Shown here: in pieces, positions 8,935 to 29,700 of the stretch
Layout: every line of letters starts with the position of its first letter
Position numbering within the stretch: position 1 is the stretch's first letter
Source: Paralichthys olivaceus
Taxonomy: Eukaryota; Chordata; Actinopteri; Pleuronectiformes; Paralichthyidae
Assembly: GCF_024713975.1 (NCBI RefSeq)
Contig: NC_091100.1
Location: 20,509,501 to 20,573,500, forward strand
Reading direction: 5' to 3'
DNA length: 64,000 bases
Position numbers and translations under genes: made by a program
The notes under the pieces: generated by a model
What the model was told of the DNA's origin: nothing
Databases searched by the model: none
Seen by the model: only the letters and a program-made list of their open reading frames with translations

Positions 8935-10194
8935 ATGACGGATCAGCCCGTGGGAGCCATCATCCAGGACCTGTCGGTGCCATCACTGCGGGTTGTGGAG
9001 GGACTTGAGTCCAGACCTCTGGGGGGAGCGTGTGGGTCCTTCACCGATGAAGCCGTTTCCATCCTGACCTCAACAAGCCAGCGGGCCCGAAGCCTCCTGG
9101 GTCGCACCTTTTTGCTCCAGCACAAAGAGAGCCCAGCCAGCGCTGAAGCTAAGGCTGGCAGCAGCTGCGATGAAGACAGCGGCAACAACATACGTCGCAA
9201 ACGGGAGTTCATTCCCAGCGAGAGCAAAGATGAAGGCTATTGGGACAAGAGAAGAAAAAACAACGAGGCCGCCAAGAGGTCCAGAGAAAGGCGGCGGGCC
9301 AATGACATGGTGCTGGAGAGGAGGGTCCTGGGTCTGCTGGAGGAGAACGCTCGCCTGAGGGCAGAGCTGCTGGCCCTCAAGTTTCGCTTTGGTCTGGTCA
9401 AAGATCCTTCTGATGTGAGCATCCTGCCACTCTCTGTTCCCCTCTGTGCACACCCACCACCCCCTACAACACATTACTACCAGCCTCAAACTGATGGACC
9501 CTCATACCTCAACACACAGCAAAGTCCCAACACCCACCAAATCCCCTCCCACCCTCAGCAGCAGCCTTCCATCTATGGGCCGAGGGTAAGCGGGCCACTG
9601 TCAGGTCACTGTGTATCCGAGGATTCCGGTGTTTCCACCTCCAGTAGCTCAAACATAGGCAGCCCTGTGTTTTTTGATGACACGTTGAGTGAACGTGTTG
9701 AGCCTTCAACGAGGGAGGTGGCCGAGGAGCAACAGGGCTTTGACTCCCACATATGTCCCGTGGAGGGACAGTATGTAAACAAACAAGACTCCCCCGAGGG
9801 GTTAAGGAGTCTCCCGCACAAGCTCCGCTTCAAATGTCCCGCTGGCAACAGTGACATAGGGGAGATGTCTCCTTCCTGTGATAACAGACACAGCGAACAG
9901 CCTGTAGTGACGGTGGGGTCAAACATGCAGGTGAGGAACCACCAACAGACAGGGTGGGACAGTCGGGCAGCAAGTCAGGCCCCGTGGTCAAGGGAGGAAG
10001 CTGGCGGTGGACTCGGGCAGCAGCATCAGGCTCTGTCCTCTGGGTATTATAACTTCTCCTCTGTGCAAAACTCCCGGGACACTAAACATACGACTGAGGA
10101 CGTCAGTTTGAGGTCGCAGATCAGCTGCTTGTCTCAGGAAGTGGCTCAGCTCAAACGGCTCTTCTCTCAGCAGCTGATCTCCAAGGTCACTTAA
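8935..10194 (+). CDS. NFIL3-like bZIP transcriptional repressor (419 aa)
   Basis: Nuclear bZIP factor of the NFIL3/E4BP4 family, which binds D-box sites (TTAYGTAA) as a dimer and usually represses. Seen: basic region about residues 100-123 ([17 protein letters not shown]), then a leucine zipper with L127, L134, L141 and L148 in register and the family ending FRFGLV. Upstream is RRKREFIP (87-94), as in NFIL3. LPHKLRFK lies at 293-300, and a C-terminal [11 protein letters not shown] block (399-409) matches the end of mammalian NFIL3. The start is the first ATG after an in-frame TGA at 8890; its context AACATGA has A at -3. The coding region is one uninterrupted exon, as is usual for NFIL3 genes. 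It is close in length to mammalian NFIL3 (about 460 aa). Family assignment is firm. Which teleost nfil3 paralogue it is cannot be decided here; it is more diverged from NFIL3 than the gene at 20.5 kb. Confidence 0.93.
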
Positions 10195-14554: not shown

Positions 14555-14800
14555 GAGGACACTCAGTGACATAATAAAGTCCCTAGCCCTTTACCCTAAG
14601 CCTAACCATCCAAACTAAATGCCTAACCTGAACTATTTTTGACATTTTAAACCAAGTCTTAACCATCAAAGCCCATTGAAAAAAGCGAGGACCGGCCAAA
14701 ATGTCCTCAATTTCTAAAAATGTCCTTACTTTCTAAAAATGTCCTCACTCTGTAGGGTCTATGCTTAACATTGTCCTCAAAAAGATATGCGTGCAGGGAC
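14555..14800. repeat. Interspersed repeat fragment
   Basis: Repeated ATGTCCTCA/CTAAAAATGTCCT units and the CCTAACC...AACCAAGTCTTAACCATC block. Related text occurs near 170-235 and 3800-3910. Teleost repeat by recognition; class not determined. Confidence 0.4.
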
Positions 14801-15027
14801 ACACATAAAGGTCGTTGTCTGGATGAATGAATTAAAGAAATAAATAATTGTGGTTTTGCATCAATAAACAAATGATCCGAAGATAAAAATACACGATGCG
14901 AGAAAACAGATTAGCTAACACCGACTCTCTCTGTTGAAGGACAGGCTGTTACGTGCCATCAATGGACGCCTCGCTAATACGGTGCGTGTTGAGAACTTCA
15001 GCTCAGGGATGAAGGTGGAGAGAAAGC

Positions 15028-15095
15028 ACGCACACACACACACAGCGAGGGAGGGAGAGAGAGAGAGAGAGAAAGACAGAGAGGGGGAGAGAGGG
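15028..15095. repeat. (CA)n-(GA)n compound microsatellite in the nfil3 promoter
   Basis: CA run then GAGA/GGGA run, just 5' of the predicted first exon. Confidence 0.85.
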
Positions 15096-15179
15096 CGTCG
15101 CGAGGAGAGACAGAGGACAAAAACGTGACTAGGCAGCGTAAGAGCTGTTATGCAACCGCTGACCTACTAACACATATTT

Positions 15180-15457
15180 CTAGAAAGGGAGCCGGGGAAA
15201 CTGGAGCAAAGTGTCCGGCGGCACACAGCGCACAGGCAGCCCGAGCCAGGAGAGACTCACACCGCATCCAGCAGCGCCACTGACGGATCCCAGCACGCAC
15301 AGGACCGCAAACTTGTTTGTCTTCCATTTTCCTTCGTTTTGCTTTTCGGGAGGTTTCCTGTAAAAAGAAGAAGAAAAAATAAGAAGAAGCAGAGGCGGAC
15401 ACGGGGACGAGCCAGACAGCTTTGTGTCGGGGAACCTTTTCTTTCTTCTCCTCAAAG
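15180..15457 (+). other. nfil3: Probable non-coding first exon of nfil3
   Basis: A CpG-rich block ends at a strong donor, CAAAG|GTACGT (GT at 15458-15459). The matching acceptor is a long pyrimidine tract ending ...TTTTCATGAACTAG at 19947, so the intron is about 4.49 kb. The left edge is approximate. No TATA box is obvious, consistent with a CpG-type promoter. Confidence 0.6.
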
Positions 15458-16969
15458 GTACGTGGGAGCGAGCCGCTGCATTTTCAGCCCTGTTGTGTTT
15501 TCTTTGTGTCGTCTACACGCTGTGTTGTGTGCTTGAACATGTGTGTGTGTGTGGACGTGAGGACATGATGCTCTCGGGTGTTGTTCACATGGCGGCTCTC
15601 CCGGTTGGGACCGGCGGACCTCGCGCCTCCGCCCGTGACTTTGAGACGTTCACGGCCGCTTTGTGTCCGGTGACAGGGAGATGTGCGGAGCTGCCACTCT
15701 GCCGCTGTCGCGCTCTCCCTTTGTTTTCTACGTCAAACACGAGGCAGCAGTGGAGAACAGGCGGCTGGCCACTCTCCACATTATGTGCTCAATGTCAAGG
15801 CGACGTATTTTCGCCCATGCTGGTGTTTTCCAGTGAATGAGGGCAGCAGCAGTGTTGTCTGGTTAATGCAGACACACCGTGTTTTATTGGAGCTCATGCA
15901 CGTGGTGTGCTGCTCTATGTATGTACGGATACTGTGTTTTTTTTTTTTATCACTATCGCAGAGATAAAATAATCTCTCCGTCTGATGCAAACATCGCTGC
16001 TTCTTTTAATTTATGAATTAATTTAAATTGTTGGGCACATTTGAACAAAATCAGTTCAAATGTAATTAAAGATTTTAGATAAATAAACCCAATAAACAAT
16101 ATACAAAAAAGCCAAACAGCATTCTATTTTAAGTATGTATATCATGCATTGTTATTGTTTAATATGTATTGTATAAATACAACAGGAGAAAAAAAAATGT
16201 AATCTACTAAAACTGGATCAACTGGACATTTTCATGCTCACGTCGCCATTAAATCCACTGTTGCCCCACATGTGTCCAGAATCACTGCTCTCAGGTTACA
16301 TCACTGTAATATAGGTTAAGAATAGAAATAAGCACACGATGTCTAATTTCTGTTCTCTGAGTCAGTGGATGGATGTTTGAGTTCTGAGGTGTGTTGAGTA
16401 AAGCACAGAGCCTCGCTTTCAGGGAGTTGGAGACTATGACATAACCAGGCACAGCAGGGAGAAGCAATAAACTGCAGCTCTCTCCTGGGACAGCGGGGCC
16501 AGTAATTGATTCCCGTTCACACCCTGTGCTTTCTTCCCACCCCTCCATACCCACAGTAACACCACACACTTATTTCTGAGGCAGAGAGATATTTAGGAAG
16601 ATTGTATTTTATAGACATGCTTTTATCTGTGAGGTAACACAGCTGCTCAGAGTATGCAAGCTATTTTTAACTCGCTCAGTCTAAAGCAAAAATGGAAGAA
16701 GAAAAAAGCAGAAGTCAGGCTAAAACAGATGTAACAGCGTTTCCTGTTTCAGGCACAAAGCTCATCTCCCAAGATCCCAGTGAGGTCTTTGCCTGTGCCT
16801 TTGTTGTGAAATTAGAACACCAAGTGAACATTCAGGATGTGATGCAATGTGTGGAAACTCCTGTGTGGTGAAGGGCAGGCAGAGTGTTGGTGAGCTCTTA
16901 GTCCGCCCCGCTGCCAGCTGGTCTGGTTTTCAGAGCCGTCTGCATTGCTCTGTCCCAGCCAGCTCCCTG

Positions 16970-16980
16970 AATATAGGTCA
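16970..16980 (+). promoter_or_regulatory. RORE (ROR/REV-ERB response element) in nfil3 intron 1
   Basis: AATATAGGTCA, a perfect match to WAWNTRGGTCA. About 1.5 kb into the intron. One of five within 3.05 kb. Confidence 0.5.
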
Positions 16981-18402
16981 GACGGGTATCTGGGTGATGA
17001 GACACATGAGGTATACAGGGCAAGGCGTGGACTACTTTATCCACTCTGTCTGTCTCGTTGAGGAATTCAAGACGACATGCAGAGTTTAGTAACTTTAGCC
17101 ATTTGGCCCAGTTCTCTCATTTGACTGACTGTTAATCAATGTGTTAGTTAAGTTTTTTACTTTGTGAATCTGCTCAGTGTAAGCAGCTAAAACCATTGAT
17201 TTGTTTGTGAAGATGTGGGAATTGAGATTTAAGTGAAAAAGATGAAGGTCACAGGTTTCTAATTGAACAAGTAAGATTAAAATGATTAAAAAGCTAAAAT
17301 GTACTAAAGAATACATTTCAAAATAAGGTCAAACCATTTTCTCAAAAAAGTGCATTTATCTAAAGTGCTTTTAGTCATATGTTCCTGTGAGGACGTGTTA
17401 AACAACACAGTCGTGTAGGTCTCACTAACTGACCTGGTATGTCTGGATTCCGGCTTCCTCGTTTATGTTTCTTTGGGCAAAATGGAGGCTACTGCAGGGG
17501 CCCCTTCCACGTGTGTGGTGTTGGATCACTTAAAAGATGGAGGAGGGGAAGAGGATGCCTTGCGTTTTACTCACACTTGCCTCAGAGGAGGTCAGAGGTG
17601 AAGCATTCCTGTTGGAGCAGCAAGTGCCTGAGAACTACTTCCCTCACTGTGTTTTTCCCTCAGTGAGAAAAACACAGAGACCCAGTGTTGCACAGTAGCT
17701 GCAGGGGATCAGCCCTTTTTAATGTGAAATCCACCTCCGCACGAAGAGCCAATTACACAGCGTACCTTGCCCAGTGTCTATTCTCTTTTTCATTCAGGGA
17801 ACAAAACAGAGAGGAGAGTGAACAAGGGGAGATTTGAGGCATTCGCAGCCAGAAACCTGTAGCTTCTGCTGCTATGTAATATGCATGTGTTACACAAGCC
17901 CCGCTCCGCCACAAGAGAAATTCAGAGCACGTACGCTACGAGCAACAACAGCAGCCCCTCCCCATGCAGTCCTGAGAGAGGAGGCCTGTTATGTGTGAAT
18001 TTGGCTGCAGAGATGGGTGTGTGCTCTGACGTCAATGCCATCTCCCCGTCTCTCGCTGTCGTTTCTCATCTGCCAAAGGTACATATAGTTACGTGCTGCA
18101 TTAGGCGTCGCAGGGTTTCCAGAGTGAACAGGAATTAATGTTGCATGAAAAATCACTGGGGCTGTCATAATCCTATTTTTGGGCAGATGGCGTATTCAAG
18201 TATGTCTCTCTTTTTCTCTCTCTGTTTTTATTCTCCCTGCCGCAGTTTGTGTACAATTCCTCTCATTTCCACCCAACGAATTCCTCCTGTCACCCCATCC
18301 TTCCTAGGCTTCCTCCCTCCCTCACCTCTATCTGTTGCTCTATTTTTAGCGTGCACTCTAATACTCTTTTCCTCTCCTGCCCTCCCTCCCATGCAGTCCC
18401 AC

Positions 18403-18413
18403 TGACCTATTTT
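18403..18413 (-). promoter_or_regulatory. RORE in nfil3 intron 1
   Basis: Minus strand reads AAAATAGGTCA, a perfect consensus match. A one-mismatch site (TTTCTAGGTCA) follows about 50 bases later on the plus strand. Confidence 0.45.
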
Positions 18414-19277
18414 ATGGCGCACCGTCAAAGACAGGAGGAGTGTTTACCGCTTAGCGCCGTTTCTAGGTCAGTGGGACAGCGCAGACGTATGCGTGCTTCC
18501 TTCTAGCCCGCCTTTGTTTCTCACCCCATCCCTCCCTCCCCTGCCAGTCTTTATGAAATTTATTCGGGGTTGGGGGGGAGATGGGGTCTGACCCTAACAT
18601 TTTTCCACATCTGTTGGTGGTTGCGTCCAAATCCCTGTCTGTTCAGCATAGCTTCACTCCGGTCCTTCAAGAAAAGGAGACAAACAAGGGAGGGAAGAAC
18701 TCATGTTTTGCCACTCACAGAAAAACTAGATTTGAAGAATAGCACCCAACCTATGTAGCCCCTGAGCCACAATATCACAGGCATGGGTTAATAAGTAGTT
18801 AGTTATTCTTAGCTGTAGCCAAACTGTTTCAGAGTCACAATGTGGGTTTATGTAACAGGGTCATTGATTCCAGGGCGAAGCAGAGAAGTATGTACGCAGT
18901 CTGGAGAAGATGTTCAGTAGATTAAATAGTTATGTGGCATTGACACTGCTCTGCAAAGGAAGTTGTTTGTAAGTTTCGTTCCACCGGAGCACATACACTT
19001 CTCTGTACGTGATATTCGGCTGTTCTTTTGCCCTCTGGCCATCACAGTTTAAATCACAGGAACAGTAGGGAGAGATTATTTGTTCAGGTCTCTGTCTTCT
19101 CTGCTTGCACCATGTCTAGTCAAAGTTTCCACACTTCATCATAGCACATTACAGAAATGGTGCCATGAACCGGGACCAGGAACTGTTTGTTTTTTCATCG
19201 GCAACGCCCCAAAATTCCTCTGTATGCCTGACTTTATCTTTGCATGCTATAGTAAATAAAAAGTATTCACTGATTGT

Positions 19278-19300
19278 AGGTCACCTTTTTGACCTAAATT
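19278..19300. promoter_or_regulatory. RORE inside an inverted AGGTCA pair, nfil3 intron 1
   Basis: AGGTCA at 19278-19283 and TGACCT at 19290-19295 form an inverted repeat with a six-base spacer. The right half is also a perfect RORE on the minus strand (AATTTAGGTCA, 19290-19300); the left half is a one-mismatch RORE. An arrangement suited to nuclear-receptor binding. Confidence 0.45.
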
Positions 19301-19414
19301 TTGCCACAAGGATGGACAGCATTTGCAGTTTTAACACAGTCTTGATTTCCAGTTTGCAATTCCAATGCGTATGAAAAGTGACACCAGAGGAGTCATTGTT
19401 ACACACAGGCCCGG

Positions 19415-19425
19415 TGACCTAGATT
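19415..19425 (-). promoter_or_regulatory. RORE in nfil3 intron 1
   Basis: Minus strand reads AATCTAGGTCA, a perfect consensus match, 115 bases from the inverted pair at 19278-19300. Confidence 0.45.
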
Positions 19426-19947
19426 ACTGCATTTTGTGTGTGTGCGTGTGTGTGTGCCATTAAAATAAGTTTTTCATGTTTGTAATGCAATCCAGGGCTC
19501 AGTGTAATGATGTGTTATTAATTACTGCATATGAACTGTGTAATGCCGTGCAGTGAGGAATCAAGTCTAAACTAAGTGCAGATCCACTTATTACATAACA
19601 CCAGACTGGCATCAGCATCCTTCCATATCTGCACTCGGCATTGTTGTTCACTTTATGCTGCAAGACCAGTAAGTTGGGCAAAGCTTCCTGTAGAGTTACG
19701 ATGTTGACACGACATAAGAAGGCTCAGCAGCTTGTGGTGTTGTGTAAGTTCAGACAGTGTGACAGCTACCACACCACCTGAGTCATTGTGACAGAAAGAG
19801 TTTAGACAAAGGGATCTCACATTAAAGTTTTGTACTACAGTTCATATTTTAAGTCTGCTTTGACTAAAATGTAAATATACCACAGTATATACTCCAGTGC
19901 TAATCCAATTCTCTCTCTTTCCTCTTCTGTCTCTTTTCATGAACTAG

Positions 19948-20469
19948 GTAGTGGTCAGCAAACATCAGCACTGAAGCCACATCCTCAGGGAGCCCCAAAG
20001 TAGACCGACTGACCTATATTCGGTGTAAGACGCTGAGAGAAGGAGGGCAGCAGCCTGACAGGCATAACAGTACTGTTGAAGATTGAGGATAAACTCGAAA
20101 TCACTTCTAGCGGGGCCACAGAAACTGCTTTCAACAAATTACCAAGCCAACTGGAAGACTCTCTGCTCAAAATCTAAACTTGTTTCTTTTTTTTAAAGTT
20201 CTTTGTACACAACACTAGTTCAATGTCTGAGGTTTTTGTGGAGTTCCAACTCTTTTTAATCTTCTTGGCTAATTTGGACACTTGAACGTTTTGATCTCAA
20301 AAAAATACACAACAGAAATCAATGAGGCAATCTCTTCAAGGAGCACAAATACCTCATCCAGAAATTTTTGCTGATCCTGCGACTTAGATCACACTTTTTA
20401 TTAACAAAGCTGAAGGCTCATACCTTTGCCCTTTGCTAGAGTCAAACTCTAGCCCCCAGTTGGGAAAAC
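19948..20469 (+). other. nfil3: 5' UTR part of nfil3 exon 2
   Basis: About 520 bases between the acceptor AG (19946-19947) and the start codon. It contains a perfect RORE (minus strand, 20010-20020) and several short upstream ATGs, for example near 20224. The last in-frame stop before the start is TAG at 20437. Confidence 0.55.
20010..20020 (-). promoter_or_regulatory. RORE in nfil3 5' UTR exon
   Basis: Minus strand reads AATATAGGTCA, identical to the site at 16970. It lies about 60 bases inside the second exon. Confidence 0.5.
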
Positions 20470-22314
20470 ATGGAAAGTCTCCATCTTCACCTTCCATCCA
20501 CCAGCAACAAAAATGCCATGGAGGTAGACAATTTCTCTAACTACAGCGGAAGCCTCCCATCCCCTGATCCTGAAAGTGGAGGGCGTGTCAGTCGCCAATC
20601 TAAAGGTAGCAAGTCTGCTTTGACTTCCCGTCGCAAGCGAGAGTTCATTTCTGATGAGAAGAAAGATGCTTCCTATTGGGAAAAACGCAGGAAGAACAAT
20701 GAAGCAGCCAAGCGCTCAAGGGAAAAGCGCCGCCTTAATGACATGGTGCTAGAGAACCGGGTCATGGCGCTGAATGAGGAGAATGTTCGTCTCAAGACAG
20801 AACTCCTTCAGCTCAAGTTACGCTTTGGCCTCATTAGCACAGCCTCTTACATGGAGAAAAGTCAGCAGATCTCCAACAGTGCTGCAAATGTCAACAGTGG
20901 TAGCAACGGGAGCAGCACCCCCAACAGTAACACCTACCTCTCAAGCAGTGGATACTCCAGTGCGTCCCAGGTGATGCTGAATTCAGACTCATCTGAACCT
21001 GAGCAGTCAAGCCGTGGTGAGCGCCACACCATGCTCCACAAATACTCTCCCTGTGGATCCATGTCTGACATGTCTGACAGTTCCTCCAGGGACAGCCCAG
21101 AACCAATGGGCTACAACATAAAGCAGGAGCCCTCAAGTTTGGAGATGACCAGGTTGGAAAGCAACGGGATTCCAGATGGGCTTGCTAATGGCTTGCCAAC
21201 TGGGTCTTACCATGGCAACCATGCTGCTCTGGTTTCTCCTCACCAGCAGGGCACACAATTGTCTGAAAGTGCCATGGACTACCAACACCACCAACTGCAG
21301 CAGCAACAGTGTCACATGGAGGCCTCCAGCCCAGCTCCTCAGGCCACCTCTGCACAAAGGAGTGTTATCTTGTACCGCTCCAGCAGTGGCTGTTACCCCA
21401 TGGAAAGCCAGAGGTCGGATGACCAGCAAGTCCAGCAGAGCAGACCTCCACAGCTTTTCCAGCAATCGTCGACCTCCAAGTTCTCTGACTGTTCATTGAC
21501 CATCACAGAGGTCGCTGAGAAGTTAGAGAGGACAAAGACTATGGACTCGCCTCAGTATGAATACACCAATGGTCATGCTGAGTCAGTAGAGGAGCTTCAG
21601 GAAAAGTACAATCCTAGTGCCCAACAGCAGCATTATAGCTACCAGGGTCAGGAGAATGGTCGTCAGCACGCAGAAAGCCACCAGAACCCCTTTGCCCCAG
21701 ATCTGACCCACAACACTGAGGAGGGCAAGTCCTCCTTTGTGCAGCACAATGGCTACCTCAACACACTGGATGAAGAGCCCCCAGTGCTCACCTATGAGGG
21801 GGGCCCCCGAGTTGATGGTTTCTACCAGGAGACCTCCTCTACTAAGGACACCTCTTCCAGTGATGGGGACCCTCGTAGCTCTGACAAGGAGGGTTCCACA
21901 GATGATGAGTCACCCTCCTCATCCTCCTCAGACATTAGCAGCTACCACCAGAAGGCAGTGGAAGCTGCCGGTTTTCACGGAGAGTGCCAAGCCGAGGTCA
22001 AAGCTACTGCTCTGCCACACAAGCTCCGTCTCAAGTACAGAGCACTGTCCAGTGGGGCAGCAGGAGCACAGCTAGAGGGTCTAGTCAACACATCCATGTC
22101 CCCCTCTCCCACCTTGCCCCAGCACCCGTACTTAGCTCTACCCAGCAATCCTCACAGCAGCCACGCCAATGGGGAGAGCAAAGAGGTAGAGAATGACACT
22201 GACTATGCAGAAGATGTTAAGACTCCTGTAAATGACAGGATGGACGATAAGAAGGAGGGAGGAAAAAAGGGATCTAGCAGTGGGAGGGGTGGACGTAATA
22301 AGAGGCGGGATTAA
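20470..22314 (+). CDS. nfil3: NFIL3 (E4BP4) bZIP transcription factor (614 aa)
   Basis: Nuclear repressor of D-box genes; in mammals it is a clock output and a lymphoid-lineage factor. Seen: [20 protein letters not shown] (54-73) is almost the mammalian sequence. The basic region is 72-90 and the zipper has L94, L101, L108, L115 and I122. It is followed by RFGLIS, as in NFIL3. IKQEP (217-221) fits a psi-K-x-E SUMO site and the human IKQEP position. A Ser/Asp/Glu-rich block (456-490) and LPHKLRLK (515-522) follow. Start: ATG in AAAACATGG (optimal Kozak), with an in-frame TAG at 20437. The coding region is one exon. Unlike mammalian NFIL3 and the neighbour at 8.9 kb, the C terminus lacks the LSxEVxxLKRL block. 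It ends in a basic Gly/Lys/Arg tail (596-614). Middle parts are Gln/His/Ser-rich. It is longer than mammalian NFIL3 (about 460 aa). The exact teleost paralogue name is uncertain. Confidence 0.94.
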
Positions 22315-22898
22315 GGACAAATGGGAGCAGCTCGAGCATCTCCTCTTTGTTGTCTATGGCAGACAGACAACTACAACTAGGACTCACATCGCCACCTTAC
22401 AAGACAGAAACGAAGCCAGTGATCTGTGTGAGGTGTAGTTAGGATGTGATTTCACCATGAAGTTTCACTGTGTCACCTGTTCCCCTTCCCTATACTCTCT
22501 CCTACCTCCCACATATCTCCCAATTTACAATAACAGATCTCTTAATGAGGGAGGGGACAGAATGAAACTCTCCAGAGATGGAGTCTGGGATATTTCTCTC
22601 GTGGAATATTCAAACAATCTTCAATTATTCATTATTATAAGCTGCCTGGGTGGCTGGTCCGCATTTACCGTGGCATTATGGGAACATTCCTTTGACCAAA
22701 GATACACGTCCTTCCTTTTTTGGCAAAGAGTGACATTCCTCCTCCCTCCGAACACATTAGAACCATTTGATCCCAAACCCTCTCATCATCTGCACACAAG
22801 TTCCTTCTGAAGCACTTAGATTGTATATTACTGTGACATATAAATTTGCATATATGGAATATATATTTTAAGTATAAAAATGTGGCAAAAACAAAAAA

Positions 22899-22904
22899 AA
22901 TAAA
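22899..22904 (+). promoter_or_regulatory. nfil3: Polyadenylation signal AATAAA, nfil3
   Basis: First AATAAA after the stop codon, 585 bases downstream in an AT-rich tract. Further AATAAA motifs near 23870 would allow a longer 3' UTR. Confidence 0.5.
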
Positions 22905-23504
22905 GTTGTGGGATAATGGAAGTTGTAGACTTTAAAGTGATCAGTTTGCTCTTGTGGAGACACCTTGTACAGTCCCTCTTTGTCTAGAAAATGTCTCAAA
23001 GATTACTTCAAAGTAAAAAAAAAAAGGAAAAAAGAAAAAATTGAGTTTTTTTCAGACTCAGCTCGGGTTCCTCGTTCAGGTGATCCAAGCTCTTTGACAC
23101 TTAAAGCTGTCAGAGCAGTCAAGGCCAGTTACTCTTGTATCAATCAAGGCTATGCAGTCACACATTGCTGTCGGCAAAACTTGACAAGCACAAGGTGAGC
23201 CTCGTTTGCAGGCCGTTCAACAGTAATCAATACATCTTCATTTTCTAGACGAACGTCGTCTGTCTAATAAATGAAACGGCTCTCCGGTCGCAACCAGCAA
23301 GGCTGCTCTCGCTTCATAAGGTGCCTCTTTATTGTGTTGTCCCTCGTCCCCTCAATGTCTTAATGACCCCACTCACCTCTGCACTGAGTTGTTTTAGCTA
23401 CAGTAGCTGCAGTATATCACACACGTCTGTACAACTGTTTCACTTCCTGGTGCCTGCCTTTGGTCACTATGTATAAATGTAAATTTGTCTCTCTATCTCT
23501 TGTA

Positions 23505-23600
23505 TACTGCTGTCATTATTTTATTATTATTTTATTAATATTGTTATTTTCTATTATATTCTGTTATTATTTTGGCTTTTATTATGTGTATTTTTATGTC
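23505..23600 (+). other. AU-rich tract, possible extended nfil3 3' UTR
   Basis: A run of TTATT/ATTATT units resembling AU-rich instability elements. It lies in the mRNA only if the distal polyadenylation sites near 23.87 kb are used. NFIL3 mRNA is short-lived in mammals; the link here is inference. Confidence 0.25.
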
Positions 23601-25989
23601 ATCCTGTTGTGTCATTTTGCTCAATGCTCTTCCTGGTTGTGCTGTGTATTTAACCCTTGCTGCCCTTTGCCCCAGTTACCATTTGTACTACGTGTTACTG
23701 TATAACCCTTGCTGTTGCCGAAAGGCTTTTTGGAAAATATGGAAGAAAAAAAAAAATTCAATAAGGCTTGTCCAGAAGTGATTATGTATTGATATACTTC
23801 ACGTGGATATGCAAAATGGTCACAAAAAAACACTCATTTTTGAATGTGAAAGATTCAAATATGGGGGGAAAAAATAAAAAGGTTGTTGAATTTATAAATG
23901 TCTCTTTTGTACTTATTGAGTCGCTCTCTTATGAAATGCTTTCAGAACAGATGCACACCCTCGCAACCAGACTAGCTTTTTTTTTTTTGTAAAAGAAAAG
24001 AAGACCAAGTAGCTGATTCACAACTCGCAGACAGCAACATCTCCGTCTGCCAGCGCAGCTCAATGAGAGCCGACACAGCCAGAAAAACTTTACTGGTTCA
24101 TCCAGTCATCACTGGAAGCCTGCTGCCTATTGGCAGAGATTCTGTGAAATGGACTGAAATAGGAACAATACATAGACTGTGATATTTTAGCACAGGAGGA
24201 AATCTGTTGTCCAAACCTAACCTCTGCCTGAACATTCATGTCGTTGAACCCTACAAAATACACACAACTCCAATGTAAACAACATATTTTAAAAACAGGC
24301 TGTCTCATCACAAGAGTCTATTCATTGGATGATATATATAAATAAAAACTATAAGAACGAAAAGTCAAGCAGTCAAATGAAAACAGTGAGAATAAATTAT
24401 TTTTATAGTGAGAAATCTCAAAAGGCACAGATTGTGCCAATACAGTCATTTGGGGAGGACACCCTTTCATATTGCTCCTAAAAGCTCTCTAACTTTTCTC
24501 ACTTTATTAAAATTAAATTGACCACAGATGATGTCATAATTTTATGGATTACTAGAGGTTTTGCTGCACCTGCATGATTTCCTAGGGGACATTCACTCTA
24601 AAATTGTCCCTTTCTTTAAGGCAGAAATAAAATACTTACTTTATCTTGTCTTCTATCTTAATTTACTCTGACACATTAAAATCTATACTGATGTGTACAT
24701 CTCTGCAGGAATCAAACAAGTGATACCTAGATACCAATGTAAATAGATACCTTTACATAGATACCATTAGGACCCTGTAGTTGCAGAGATATACACTATT
24801 CATTTTAGGCATGTCCTTCAGGGGTGTGGGATAGTGGACTACAAGAGGTTAACTCAAATAGAAATGGATAAAAGAGAAAAGTTGTTTTTTACTGAGCTTT
24901 TTAAATCTAGTTCAGAAAATACAACATTTGTGATGCAATTAAAATAATCTTGATTTTAAATCTACTGAAATAAATGCAAACTGGCCACTTTCATAGCTAC
25001 TTAACTGAAAGAGGGAATGTCAGCATTAAAACACACACAACACAGTGTTTCATCAAAAAAGAAGTTCCCCACTAGCGAAGTTGCTTTATGTTGCTCTCTG
25101 TGTCTGGTCAGTCCATTATTGCTCAACACCATGAACCAGTGTCTTAGATAGATAAAAACAGAAAAACAAATCACAGCGTGTAACAGAGTGCATCAAGCAA
25201 AAAACAAGTTACACAACTGTCTTGGGAGAAAACTGCGTCAGACTATAAAGTGCAGCAGCCTCCATCTGACCCTGCTGTTAATGGAACAATAGCTGATAGG
25301 AACTGAAAGCTGGCATGGGCAGAGCTTGCCACTGACATGGGTTACATAAGAGTCATTAAGGAGAGGAGAGCCTATCAGATACAGGGGTGTTGCTGTTTGA
25401 GAAGGAAACACCCAAACTTAATAAGATTCTCAGGATGTCAACTCTGGAAACACAAATGCCAACAAATAAGCAAAAAAGCATACAACATGTTTTCCTCCTC
25501 AGAGATTATTACCATCATGTTGTGCAAATCTGTGAAACAATTCAAACTTATGCGCAATACTTTTAGTGTGAAGCAACAGGAGCTTACTCCTGCAAGAGAA
25601 AGAGGAAGAATGAAGGTGTTTGGAAGCAGCTGACCCCACACAGACGCACCAATGTGCAGCTTTAATCTGTCTTCACTTCTGCTGTAACAAGGTGGCATTC
25701 CTGAGAAAACCGCAGTGCTTTGTGTTGCACTTTCCTCTCTTTCCTTTTCACCTTTTCTCCTTCCCACCTTCCACTTCCCTCTCACTATCTCTTGTTTTCT
25801 CTTTTTCGCTCTCTCTCTAACTCCCCCCCTTTTCCCCCCTCCAACCCGTCTTTGAGCTGTAAAAGCTCCTTTGTGTTGTGCGGAGGCTTGCGAAAACAGG
25901 CCAGGAGAGTAAAAGTAGGTCAGTGAGGAGGGATGGGAGAGGAGGGGAAGGGGTGAGGAGCAGGAGAGAGAGAGAGGTATTCAGAGTGG

Positions 25990-26038
25990 AGAGCAGGGAG
26001 GGAGAGGGGGGGGGAGGCAGGGAGGGAGGGAGGGAGGA
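25990..26038. repeat. (GGGA)n purine tract
   Basis: Purine-only run with a G8 core, between two of the 3' flank ROREs. Confidence 0.9.
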
Positions 26039-26728
26039 TTACGTCACATGTCTCTACAGTGTAAACTTGAGCAAACCAGTCAGAAAAAAGCCCCTATCTT
26101 GTTGCTGCATGAGGGAGCAGGTCAGTGACACACACACAGACACGCACATTTCAGTTTGATGTTGCATCAAGTCGACAAGCACACACAGATTTTTTAATTC
26201 GTCAGAACTAATTCAGTTATGTAATACAAAGCTCCATGGCATGTTTATGGTTGTATATTGATGATTTTATCTGACCAACTTAATGGAAATTGGGTGTGGT
26301 TTTTTCAGTGTGCAGATATTTACAGGCCATCTTTGGGGAAATACAGGTTGTAGAAAGTGATGCCTGCTGTGGGATTAGATACCAAATCCCAGACATTCAA
26401 GTTTGACCTAATTTGGACTTTTCTCAGCAGTGTTCCAGCACATGCCATTTGAATCCACCTGTCCCTCAGGTGTGTGCACAGCAGAGGAGCCGTTACCTGG
26501 AATATTAATTTCCTGTAAAATGAAGATATTTATGAAAACTGGTCGGTCATGGCGAAGAGTGTGTGTGTGCAAGAGAGAGAGGGAGGGGGTGTTGGCCCTG
26601 CGCTGCCTGCGGTGATCATCAGCCCTGACTGGTTATGTAACTGGGATGCTGCAGTATGTAGGTCAGCAGCACAGGGAGAGCCAGGGATGGGGTAAAGAGG
26701 ATCTAGCCGAGGAGTGTGTGTTGATATA

Positions 26729-26762
26729 TATGTGTGTTTGTGTGTGTGTGTTTGTGTGTGTT
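26729..26762. repeat. (TG)n microsatellite
   Basis: TG run with two TTTG interruptions. Confidence 0.85.
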
Positions 26763-29700
26763 GACAGTTTACACCTCTGAATTTCAGATCAGAGTCGTTT
26801 TAGCTCGTCATCCTCACAGAGAGGATGTGCTGTTTACATCCTGCCGAGCAGATGTCAAATACCGTCGCTCGCTGCAGAAATCTCAGCTGAAATGAGCTGA
26901 AATCAACTGAATGGAGAGGAGAAAATCATTGGGAGGTCAACGAAGCAGAAAAAAACTCATTGCGCAATAGAGCTTAACTGACCCAGCTTTGAATATTACA
27001 TCAGTGCTTGCTAGTGTGCAGTTTGTTTTCCACAATCCAGCCCTTGCAAACACTGAATCTCTCAGTTTTGTGTCTTCTTGTGGAAGAAACTATGTTTTTA
27101 AAAAAAGCATTGTCTCAGCTGATCATATAAAAATCACTATTATAATTAAAACAAAAATCTGTCTGGATGATTTGATTAAGATCAGCCAGAAACTGGTCAA
27201 ACTGAAAATAATCTTATCCCAATTTCTTAAAATACAGAATAAATCACTCAGGAATGCAGTTGTATTAAGCCTGTTGCAGCATGGATGGACATGGTGTCCA
27301 CCAAGAGTCTCAAGTCACCTCAGTGAGTTATTAATAAACTTTAGGCATATCTTCTGAATTTTCATTTATTTATAGATCATTTCCTTTGATGATGATTGTA
27401 ATTTAAATAAACAAGTTGTTGTGCCTCACTTTACTGCCATTAGGGATTTATGGATATGTTTGTCTTTACTTCAGGATGTTTGGTAACACAATTTCAAAAT
27501 CTCACATTAAACCCAAATCAAGCCTAAAATTCCTTTGATGTAAAAAGACGCACATGCTACAACTGTGATATCAGCACAAATGAATCTATGTATTTTATGT
27601 AGGCTACACTGCGAGATGTGTCCCTGATTTGCACACGCCTGCAGGAAGCCTTTGAGAGAAAGCAGAGCGAGGGAGAAAAACGACTCATCTGTTGGACATG
27701 CTTGGTTGGCTGCTGTTCAAGGGGGAGTTATGTTGCCTGCCATGCCCCATTCAATCCCCGCTCACTGCCTCTGCCCTACACAGCTCTGTAAAATAGGTCA
27801 GGAAATGTAATGTGTGTGTGAGTGTTACATACATTAGCACAAATTATGATTTGCGGAAGGCCCGTGAGTGGGACACAACACACACGCACACAGACACAGC
27901 GAAGCATTTACATCACAATGTAAAAATAGGCCATAAGAAAATTGTGCATTTCTGATATGAAAGTAGGCCACTGGGATGTTTGTGTGTGAGCGATGATTCA
28001 GCTCCATGTTATGCAATGTGAAACCACCCTTGGGTCCCATTGCCATATATTGTGCCCTTGTGCCACAGGAAGTAGCTTGTCCCTGCATGTTTGTGTGAGT
28101 GTTTGTCCAAATGGAGGAATAGGACGGCCATATTCGTTTGGCCACTGACACAAGCAATCTGTCATCTGCGGAAGATATTTTGGACATATTCCCCTTTTTC
28201 AGGGTTTTTCCAGAGACTATTAAGGCAAAACACAAGGCAAAATTTTAAGTGAATGAAATACTACTAGTTTAGCTTGAGCATTTTTCAATTTTTCAAGATA
28301 TTTCCAGAGATCAAAGTATTACGTTTCTTTTTTCCAGGAAAAACTAAACAGAAGGCAAACATTTTAACAGTTTAAAATGACCTAAATGCTGCTAACATGT
28401 CTGTATGGTAAATGTGGAGCTACAGCCAGCCGCTGTCTGGCAACCTCAACATGACAGCAGACTCCTGTGCACCAGCCAAGAAATCGTTGGGCACGTAACC
28501 GCCCGTAAAACCATAAAGTGTTGTTTGTTCATGTATTATCATAATTTTTTGGCTAAAATTAGTGGTGAGCTAATTTTATTACGTGTAGACAGAGCGAGGC
28601 TTTCTGCTTCTCTTAAGTTCAGCTAAACTTACTCAAATGTCTTTCCCCAGAATGTCAAACTAATTCCTTTGAAAGAAACTACTCACTTAAATTTACCTTT
28701 TTAAAATTGTTTTTTAAGTAAAAACATACATGCACCTCATTATTAACAGAAACCATGAGGGAAGTCAATAAAAATAGTAGGTTTGCTTAGGTTTTTGGAT
28801 ATTTGCCATCCTATTTTTTAGATTTTTACAGTGAGTTTCATGTTGCCCACCAAAGAAATGCGTCATACTTTCTGATGTAATCACATACTGATTCCATCTA
28901 GACACACAAAGTTCCCACATAGCTGTTTTAGAGCTCTGACTCAGGCGTTGTGAAGCCCTGTCCCTGTCTGCCACGTTAAAAGATCCATATTTGTGAGCTG
29001 TGTGTATCCACAGTGCAAATATTTTACTGACACCAGAGGAGCGCTGATGAACACATGGGCTCGAGTGCACAGTTTTAAATCCAAGCTGCCAACATTGTTC
29101 CATAAATATTTAACGTGGAACATCAGCGGAGATCAACACAGTTAATTAAACACAGAGAGGAGGTAGGCTGTACATGCCCCTGATGAGACATTACAAGCAG
29201 GAATTTATGTGTTGTTTCCAAGGAAGACTTATTCATTATCATTTATTATGAAACAGTCTTTGCTCTGGCCAAGATAATATCAGACTTTAATTGTGTGGGT
29301 TTGCCAAAAGTGGAGAGTTTCTTCCAAACGTATGGTAACTTTTAGTGACACATTTCCTTTCTGGTTTCTGATACTTGCATTCTGATGATCTACAGAGCAA
29401 GGAGGCCGTACTGGGAAACACAGGGTGAATTTATTTCAAAAAAGCCTGTGAATTAGGATTATAACTTGATTTGGTTATTGCAGGGTGCTGGATAAGCCTG
29501 ACGCAAGCTTATGATGGAGTAATGCTCAGAAAAGTCTCTATAAAGGAAATTTAAACATTTTAATAAACATACGGGCATGTGAGCAGCATATTACTATAGA
29601 ATGTAATAAATCAGAGGTGGTTTGATCCTATAAATCTATCTCAAGTTGATTCAGTGCACACAGCTCATACGGTGAGGTTTTATCAGTAATAATGCACAGG

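Follow-up and report, generated by a model that had tools for sequence, protein, structure and literature searches.

Mammalian Nfil3 has been described as an established target of REV-ERB (PMC7568238), and E4bp4 as a gene regulated mainly through the retinoic acid receptor-related orphan receptor (ROR) response element (RORE) in the phase of Bmal1 (PMC2265523). In zebrafish, nfil3 was predicted from a teleost promoter comparison to be a target of the REV-ERB/ROR response element (RRE) (Li et al. 2013, PMC3585402), and the same report gives a peak at circadian time (CT) 14.42 for nfil3, at 12.8-13.4 for arntl1a/b and at 15.1 for clock; nfil3-6 peaked at CT5.9, and nfil3-2 and nfil3-4 were non-oscillating (PMC3585402). 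Rhythmic nfil3 has further been described in salmon fry, and nfil3 and nfil3-5 have been listed among the genes with changed rhythm in cave populations of cavefish. Here we describe a 64,000-nucleotide stretch of the Paralichthys olivaceus genome (hereafter the window, on contig C8) in which a cluster of ROREs surrounds an NFIL3-like bZIP gene with a single coding exon (20470..22314, plus strand, 614 aa). The cluster is real and unusually rich at the pair formed by this gene and its duplicate on contig C5 (C5:20225521-20227317, minus strand), and it is likely functional.

RORE sites around the NFIL3-like gene

A scan of both strands for WAWNTRGGTCA found 11 perfect sites in the window, nine of them at 16970-27800, in agreement with the counts made by eye in a preliminary description of this DNA. 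The five sites on which that description centred were all perfect, with coordinates and strands exactly right, namely 16970..16980 (+), 18403..18413 (-), 19290..19300 (-), 19415..19425 (-), and 20010..20020 (-). Their proposed placement in intron 1 and the 5' untranslated region (UTR) was plausible, the first four lying in predicted intron 1 and the 20010 site in the predicted 5' UTR of exon 2, between a predicted donor-like site at 15457/15458 and the coding sequence, with a predicted acceptor near 19947 that is preceded by an extended pyrimidine tract. Among the one-mismatch sites reported with them, those at 18460..18470 (+) and 19273..19283 (+), the latter facing the 19290 site, stood as given, while the promoter site TTAGTAGGTCA, put at 15161-15171, was off by one and really occupies 15160..15170 (-).

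The cluster proved bigger than first described: over 15.2-28.4 kb, 13 TAGGTCA cores and nine perfect sites flank the gene 5' and 3'. The perfect sites were divided into five on the 5' side, none in the coding sequence and four on the 3' side. These last four, at 25912..25922 (+), 26404..26414 (-), 26655..26665 (+), and 27790..27800 (+), constitute a second cluster understated in the earlier account, together with a one-mismatch site CATTTAGGTCA at 28378..28388 (-). Nearness and the like arrangement at C5 are the grounds, short of proof, on which the 3' cluster was attributed to the NFIL3-like gene; the next gene detected 3' was an RGL-like RasGEF gene on the minus strand with domains at 40.5-46.1 kb, the interval of 28-40 kb having had no systematic gene search.

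The chance estimate of one or two matches per 64 kb made beforehand fitted both the order-2 Markov expectation (1.28; 1.77 for order 1 and 1.09 for order 3) and the genome rate (1.46, from 13,399 WAWNTRGGTCA matches in 588,085,608 bases of 25 contigs). The reversed pattern had 16,929 genome matches, and hence the motif is not in excess genome-wide. In 450 Markov simulations (150 per order), the maximum was five matches per window and the largest 3-kb cluster contained three. The excess likewise withstood shuffling of the motif, since none of 1500 column-permuted versions reached 11 window matches or five in 3,050 bases. As for the core itself, TAGGTCA was the top over-represented of 8192 7-mers at 15.0-28.4 kb (13 seen vs 0.81 expected) and also at 16.9-20.03 kb (seven vs 0.25), and it ranked fifth for clustering across the window, the four words above it being simple-repeat or low-complexity. 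All nine perfect sites took the form WAWNTAGGTCA, of which 0.15 were expected in 14.2 kb.

Type of the sites

The WAW extension was found on 10 of the 18 TAGGTCA cores of the window against a background of 9.4% (p=1e-6), and AGGTCA was preceded by T at 13 of 20 locus sites vs five of 41 elsewhere (p=5e-5). In all 13 local cores, the second and third positions ahead of the core were occupied by A or T. The NR5A/ERR type CAAGGTCA was seen four times outside the locus and never within it, and AAGGTCA occurred twice in the locus. The nine perfect sites conformed to the published definition of a RORE as AGGTCA with 5' A/T-rich sequence (PMC7568238). By these sequence features, the locus sites are of the ROR/REV-ERB monomer type.

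No perfect direct repeat with a spacing of two bases (DR2, as in RevDR2) was present among the 18 window cores. When 13 spacings were tried for a second half-site, spacing 2 was nevertheless the best, with at least four of six matches at five of 13 sites (background 5.4% per site); the 18460 site, for example, is accompanied at DR2 spacing by GGGACA, which matches RGGTCA at five of six positions. This preference may be taken as a weak sign of REV-ERB dimers. Some locus cores were closely spaced, at 13 and 61 bases, and these spacings were counted in favor of REV-ERB because recruitment of NCOR/HDAC3 by REV-ERB has been reported at RevDR2 or two close ROREs (PMC7568238). E-boxes were not in excess in the window (CACGTG, 12 vs 13.1 expected). 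As a separate observation, a perfect 14-nt inverted repeat, GTCCCACTGACCTA / TAGGTCAGTGGGAC at 18396-18409/18464-18477, sets two ROREs (18403 and 18464) face to face.

Gene identity and the NFIL3 family in the genome

The protein encoded by the window gene matched bZIP_2 (E=1.8e-15) and the NFIL3 bZIP chain 8k89 (E=3.7e-32), the latter placing it in the NFIL3-type bZIP family. PF06529, the vertebrate NFIL3 domain lying C-terminal to the bZIP, by which an NFIL3 orthologue was to be recognized, gave no match at E up to 5. The protein encoded on contig C18 matched PF06529 with E=1e-91 and 308 bits (cut-off 25), and was the sole one of seven above the cut-off; the C5 duplicate (E=2.4) did not reach it, nor did the gene at 8.9 kb, whose C-terminal half gave E=0.096. 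The name nfil3 originally given to the window gene was thus not upheld: by PF06529, the orthologue resides on C18, and the window gene is a diverged NFIL3-like gene. Consequently, the argument from mammalian NFIL3 carries over by family only.

The seven proteins emerged from a genome search with the 614-aa protein, which returned at least 15 matches, seven of them NFIL3-type (bZIP similarity E 1e-16 or better); the remaining eight, with E values of 6e-7 or weaker, were presumed to be other bZIPs. The NFIL3-type genes were the tandem pair of the window, a C5 pair that matches it in gene order and spacing, the single gene on C18, and a pair on C3 (C3a and C3b). In the tree of the seven proteins, the C8 and C5 NFIL3-like genes grouped together (support 0.996), as did their two tandem partners (1.000), and these pairings implied a block duplication of the tandem pair, for which the teleost genome duplication would be the simplest source. 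In viral and prokaryote contigs, 2 and 52 stretches, respectively, matched the pattern searched for relatives of the 614-aa protein, and none was confirmed.

Conservation at the duplicate locus

The C5 locus was located by protein search, independently of the motif. Within 8 kb of the coding sequence, nine perfect sites were counted on C8 and seven on C5, where 0.41 were expected for each (P=2.5e-7 for C5), and in a 40-kb C5 stretch the RORE extension was present on 10 of 14 cores; the duplicate locus thus has a cluster of its own. The tandem genes had two (C8) and three (C5) perfect sites within 8 kb, frames that overlap the neighbouring cluster, and one each within 5 kb (0.26 expected). No perfect RORE was found within 8 kb of C18 NFIL3, C3a or C3b. 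The perfect-site excess belongs to the NFIL3-like branch. The contrast drawn earlier with the paralogue at 8.9 kb therefore held for clusters, in view of its single perfect site within 5 kb, but that gene may still receive clock input, three TTATGTAA D-boxes and two TAGGTCA cores lying upstream of it; in perfect sites, the contrast was sharper with C18 NFIL3 and the C3 pair than with the 8.9-kb paralogue.

Conservation of the single sites, which had been proposed as a check, was assessed against the C5 duplicate only. Two of 13 cores (15160 and 25916) aligned convincingly, one was borderline, and 10 had no convincing alignment. A global alignment of the promoter-to-coding-sequence stretches of C8 and C5 gave no core-on-core overlap except the promoter pair. 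Two candidate partners of the 18403 site were rejected: C5:20229098 scored 52, which is chance level in that three unrelated shared words reach 53, and C5:20221584 scored 62 within a pyrimidine/purine-rich stretch in the opposite orientation.

The promoter core lies in a block conserved at C5 (15047..15191, plus strand; about 76% over 148 columns, blastn E=1.6e-21), within a region whose observed/expected CpG ratio was 0.76-0.95 over 14751-16000. Here, a 27-nt composite (15146..15172, plus strand) consists of TTATGCAAC, which we take to be D-box/C/EBP-like, three bases, and then TGACCTACTAA, which is RORE-like on the minus strand with one mismatch. Within three mismatches, the composite was found at two places genome-wide, the C8 and C5 promoters; a relaxed composite (at most two mismatches) was found at 27 places, and without mismatch only at these two promoters. 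Its RORE half (TGACCTACTAACA plus five bases) was also present on C18, in CpG-rich DNA 2.9 kb ahead of the NFIL3 coding sequence, and an 18-nt promoter pattern matched the genome perfectly three times, at one NFIL3-family gene each on C8, C5, and C18, against about 0.07 expected, the pattern having been derived from those three sequences with two two-fold positions and the expectation being based on length with equal base frequencies. The element was not present at the C3 pair. The promoter site common to the NFIL3-like genes and C18 NFIL3 looks like an ancestral element. Near C18 1888404, the CpG-rich region upstream of the NFIL3 orthologue shows an exact 18-nt RORE-containing identity with the C5 NFIL3-like promoter.

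The 25912 site lies within a second, partly purine-rich conserved element, which scored 85 against a maximum of 52 among 1500 random pairs. In a separate null anchored on 63 shared words, some of them inside the conserved blocks themselves, scores of at least 85 were confined to the promoter block, the 25912 element, and a block near 22.8 kb, beyond the stop codon. As an ungapped pattern, the 3' element matched C8 only, owing to small gaps in the C5 alignment. Taken together, it appears that the number of sites has been kept while most single sites have turned over.

D-boxes and other features of the window

D-boxes were likewise over-represented: RTTAYGTAAY occurred seven times in the window, each time as RTTATGTAAY, for which the genome rate was 0.96 per 64 kb. 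Five TTATGTAA lay at 18.8-26.6 kb, and another three preceded the tandem gene. Near the NFIL3-like gene, the D-box GTTATGTAAC at 26632..26641 (+), of the type bound by NFIL3/PAR bZIP proteins, contributes a TTATGTAA that starts 26 nt ahead of the TAGGTCA core of the 26655 site, and further copies were located at 18848, 19591, 25342, and 26217. These D-boxes would allow feedback by NFIL3-type or PAR proteins. On C5, each of the five TTATGTAA in the 40-kb stretch was situated upstream of the tandem partner, the surroundings of the NFIL3-like gene having none, and D-boxes beside the RORE cluster are therefore not a feature common to both duplicates. Their placement hints that D-box and RORE input may be divided between the tandem genes.

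The tandem NFIL3-type gene of the window, which encodes 419 aa, spans 8935-10194; its TTATGTAA D-boxes start at 929, 1496, and 4781. The sole full cAMP response element of the window (TGACGTCA) is at 18027-18034, in predicted intron 1 of the NFIL3-like gene. Farther downstream, the RGL-like gene showed RasGEF and RasGEF_N domains with RGL2 as the nearest solved structure, and coiled-coil open frames on the minus strand at 60.7-63.9 kb weakly resembled ODAD3 (E 0.0013 and 0.035). RGL3 and ODAD3 are neighbours on human 19p13.2; on this basis, the locus would belong to a different paralogon from that of human NFIL3, which is on 9q.

Interpretation and alternative explanations

The number, specificity, and placement of the sites, together with the matching cluster on C5, suggested that the NFIL3-like gene is rhythmic and driven by a homotypic cluster of ROR/REV-ERB elements, a reading to which we assign a probability of roughly three in four (0.77). 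ROR activators and REV-ERB (NR1D) repressors would compete for binding at shared A/T-flanked TAGGTCA sites, which are located in the promoter, predicted intron 1, the predicted 5' UTR, and the 3' flanking region, so that the transcript would rise at low REV-ERB, roughly with bmal1 and clock. The NFIL3-like protein would then pass the phase on as a D-box repressor, as members of the NFIL3 family are D-box repressors.

Several points weigh against this proposal. None of the five 5' perfect sites described initially aligned convincingly with C5, the 18403 pairing with a score of 52 being the best among them, and the most conserved promoter site is one mismatch off the perfect consensus. C18 NFIL3 had four TAGGTCA cores within 8 kb and six in 30 kb, none fully extended; it is poorer in ROREs rather than proven free of them, and may have weak RORE input. 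The nfil3 gene names of zebrafish could not be mapped to the genes here, nor could those of salmon and cavefish. The region limits were set after the sites were known, although the window-wide, genome-wide, and gene-centred 5- and 8-kb tests agreed. In addition, the Poisson expectations at the genome rate, 0.012 clusters of five in 3,051 bases and about 4e-6 clusters of nine in 10.8 kb genome-wide, assume an even spread, for which the sole check was a sample of the first 100 of 13,399 genome matches (coefficient of variation of the gaps, 1.10). Even so, with these expectations, with a maximum in that sample of two matches in 3,051 bases and three in 14.2 kb, and with the excess repeated at a locus found by protein and not by motif, chance clustering singled out from a large genome is scarcely credible, although the finding was picked by eye from one of many windows.

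The AGGTCA half-site is common to many receptors, and the TAGGTCA sites could instead serve mainly NR4A, NR5A, ERR, TR/RXR, or COUP-TF, or ROR alone in development or immunity. RORs do act outside the clock too, and four of the 13 local cores lack the full RORE extension; nonetheless, the enrichment of T before AGGTCA, the rarity of AAGGTCA and absence of CAAGGTCA in the locus, and the A/T bases ahead of every core speak against this reading, and we regard such a non-clock role as unlikely, although a role of ROR alone would be compatible with the sequence. An origin as a functionless by-product of local duplication or of mobile-element copies carrying TAGGTCA is more improbable still. The 17-nt contexts of 16970 and 20010 are identical at 16 of 17 positions, the 18403 and 18464 sites share the inverted repeat noted above, 18388-18413 and 19995-20020 are 77% alike over 26 nt, and 18386-18413 and 25912-25939 are 79% complementary over 28 nt. 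By eye, however, most of the 13 flanks were unrelated past the core, no family linking several sites was seen among the repeats listed (the first 20 direct repeats out of 43 and 25 inverted ones out of 61), and the C5 cluster has mostly different flanks.

Concerning its history, we tentatively envisage a course of events that has somewhat longer odds against it than for it. The ancestral promoter RORE would have stayed alone in the NFIL3 orthologue after duplication, while the NFIL3-like branch would have built a two-sided cluster whose site number both duplicates keep by selection; the duplicates would thereby have become the main RORE-driven NFIL3 output, and the upstream tandem partner would have taken over D-box (light) input. 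With the ROR/REV-ERB-driven rhythm proposed above, the likely clock-linked gene shifts from the NFIL3 orthologue to the NFIL3-like duplicate pair, and the cluster offers a candidate explanation, at the sequence level, for the restriction of bmal1/clock-phase cycling to some of the fish nfil3 paralogues. The locus may also represent a natural case in which evolution seems to keep the total number of receptor sites and not the single sites. A concrete candidate for an ancestral element is provided by the 18-nt promoter sequence that three NFIL3-family genes have in common.

Comparison with known systems

In mammals, NFIL3 is known to be under RORE control. The finding is known in kind; no report of a RORE cluster at a teleost NFIL3-like duplicate was found in the open-access PMC literature, subscription papers being outside this scope. 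The window gene belongs to the same gene family as mammalian Nfil3/E4bp4 with its RORE control by ROR and REV-ERB. Unlike the latter, it is a diverged NFIL3-like gene, and the fish orthologue on C18 is without a perfect RORE within 8 kb and has weaker cores, including the promoter element. Zebrafish nfil3 is likewise a teleost nfil3-family gene with predicted RRE input; in contrast to the present locus, the sections consulted of that report (PMC3585402) mention neither a site cluster nor an intron or 3' element for it.

Bmal1 is known for its twin ROREs, and multiple perfect sites were also present at a bmal1 locus of this genome (C7:2056001-2076000), the single one considered, which was recognized through a 57-aa stretch with 95% identity to BMAL1. 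Its 20 kb contained four perfect ROREs, including two separated by 111 bases. Three of these four were of the TGGGTCA type, whereas the nine sites of the NFIL3-like locus extend over 11 kb on both sides of the gene and are all of the TAGGTCA type. Homotypic binding-site clusters with site turnover are a general enhancer principle, which to our knowledge has not been described for clock receptors in teleost duplicates (no dedicated search was made); as in such clusters, density appears to be kept here while the sites move.

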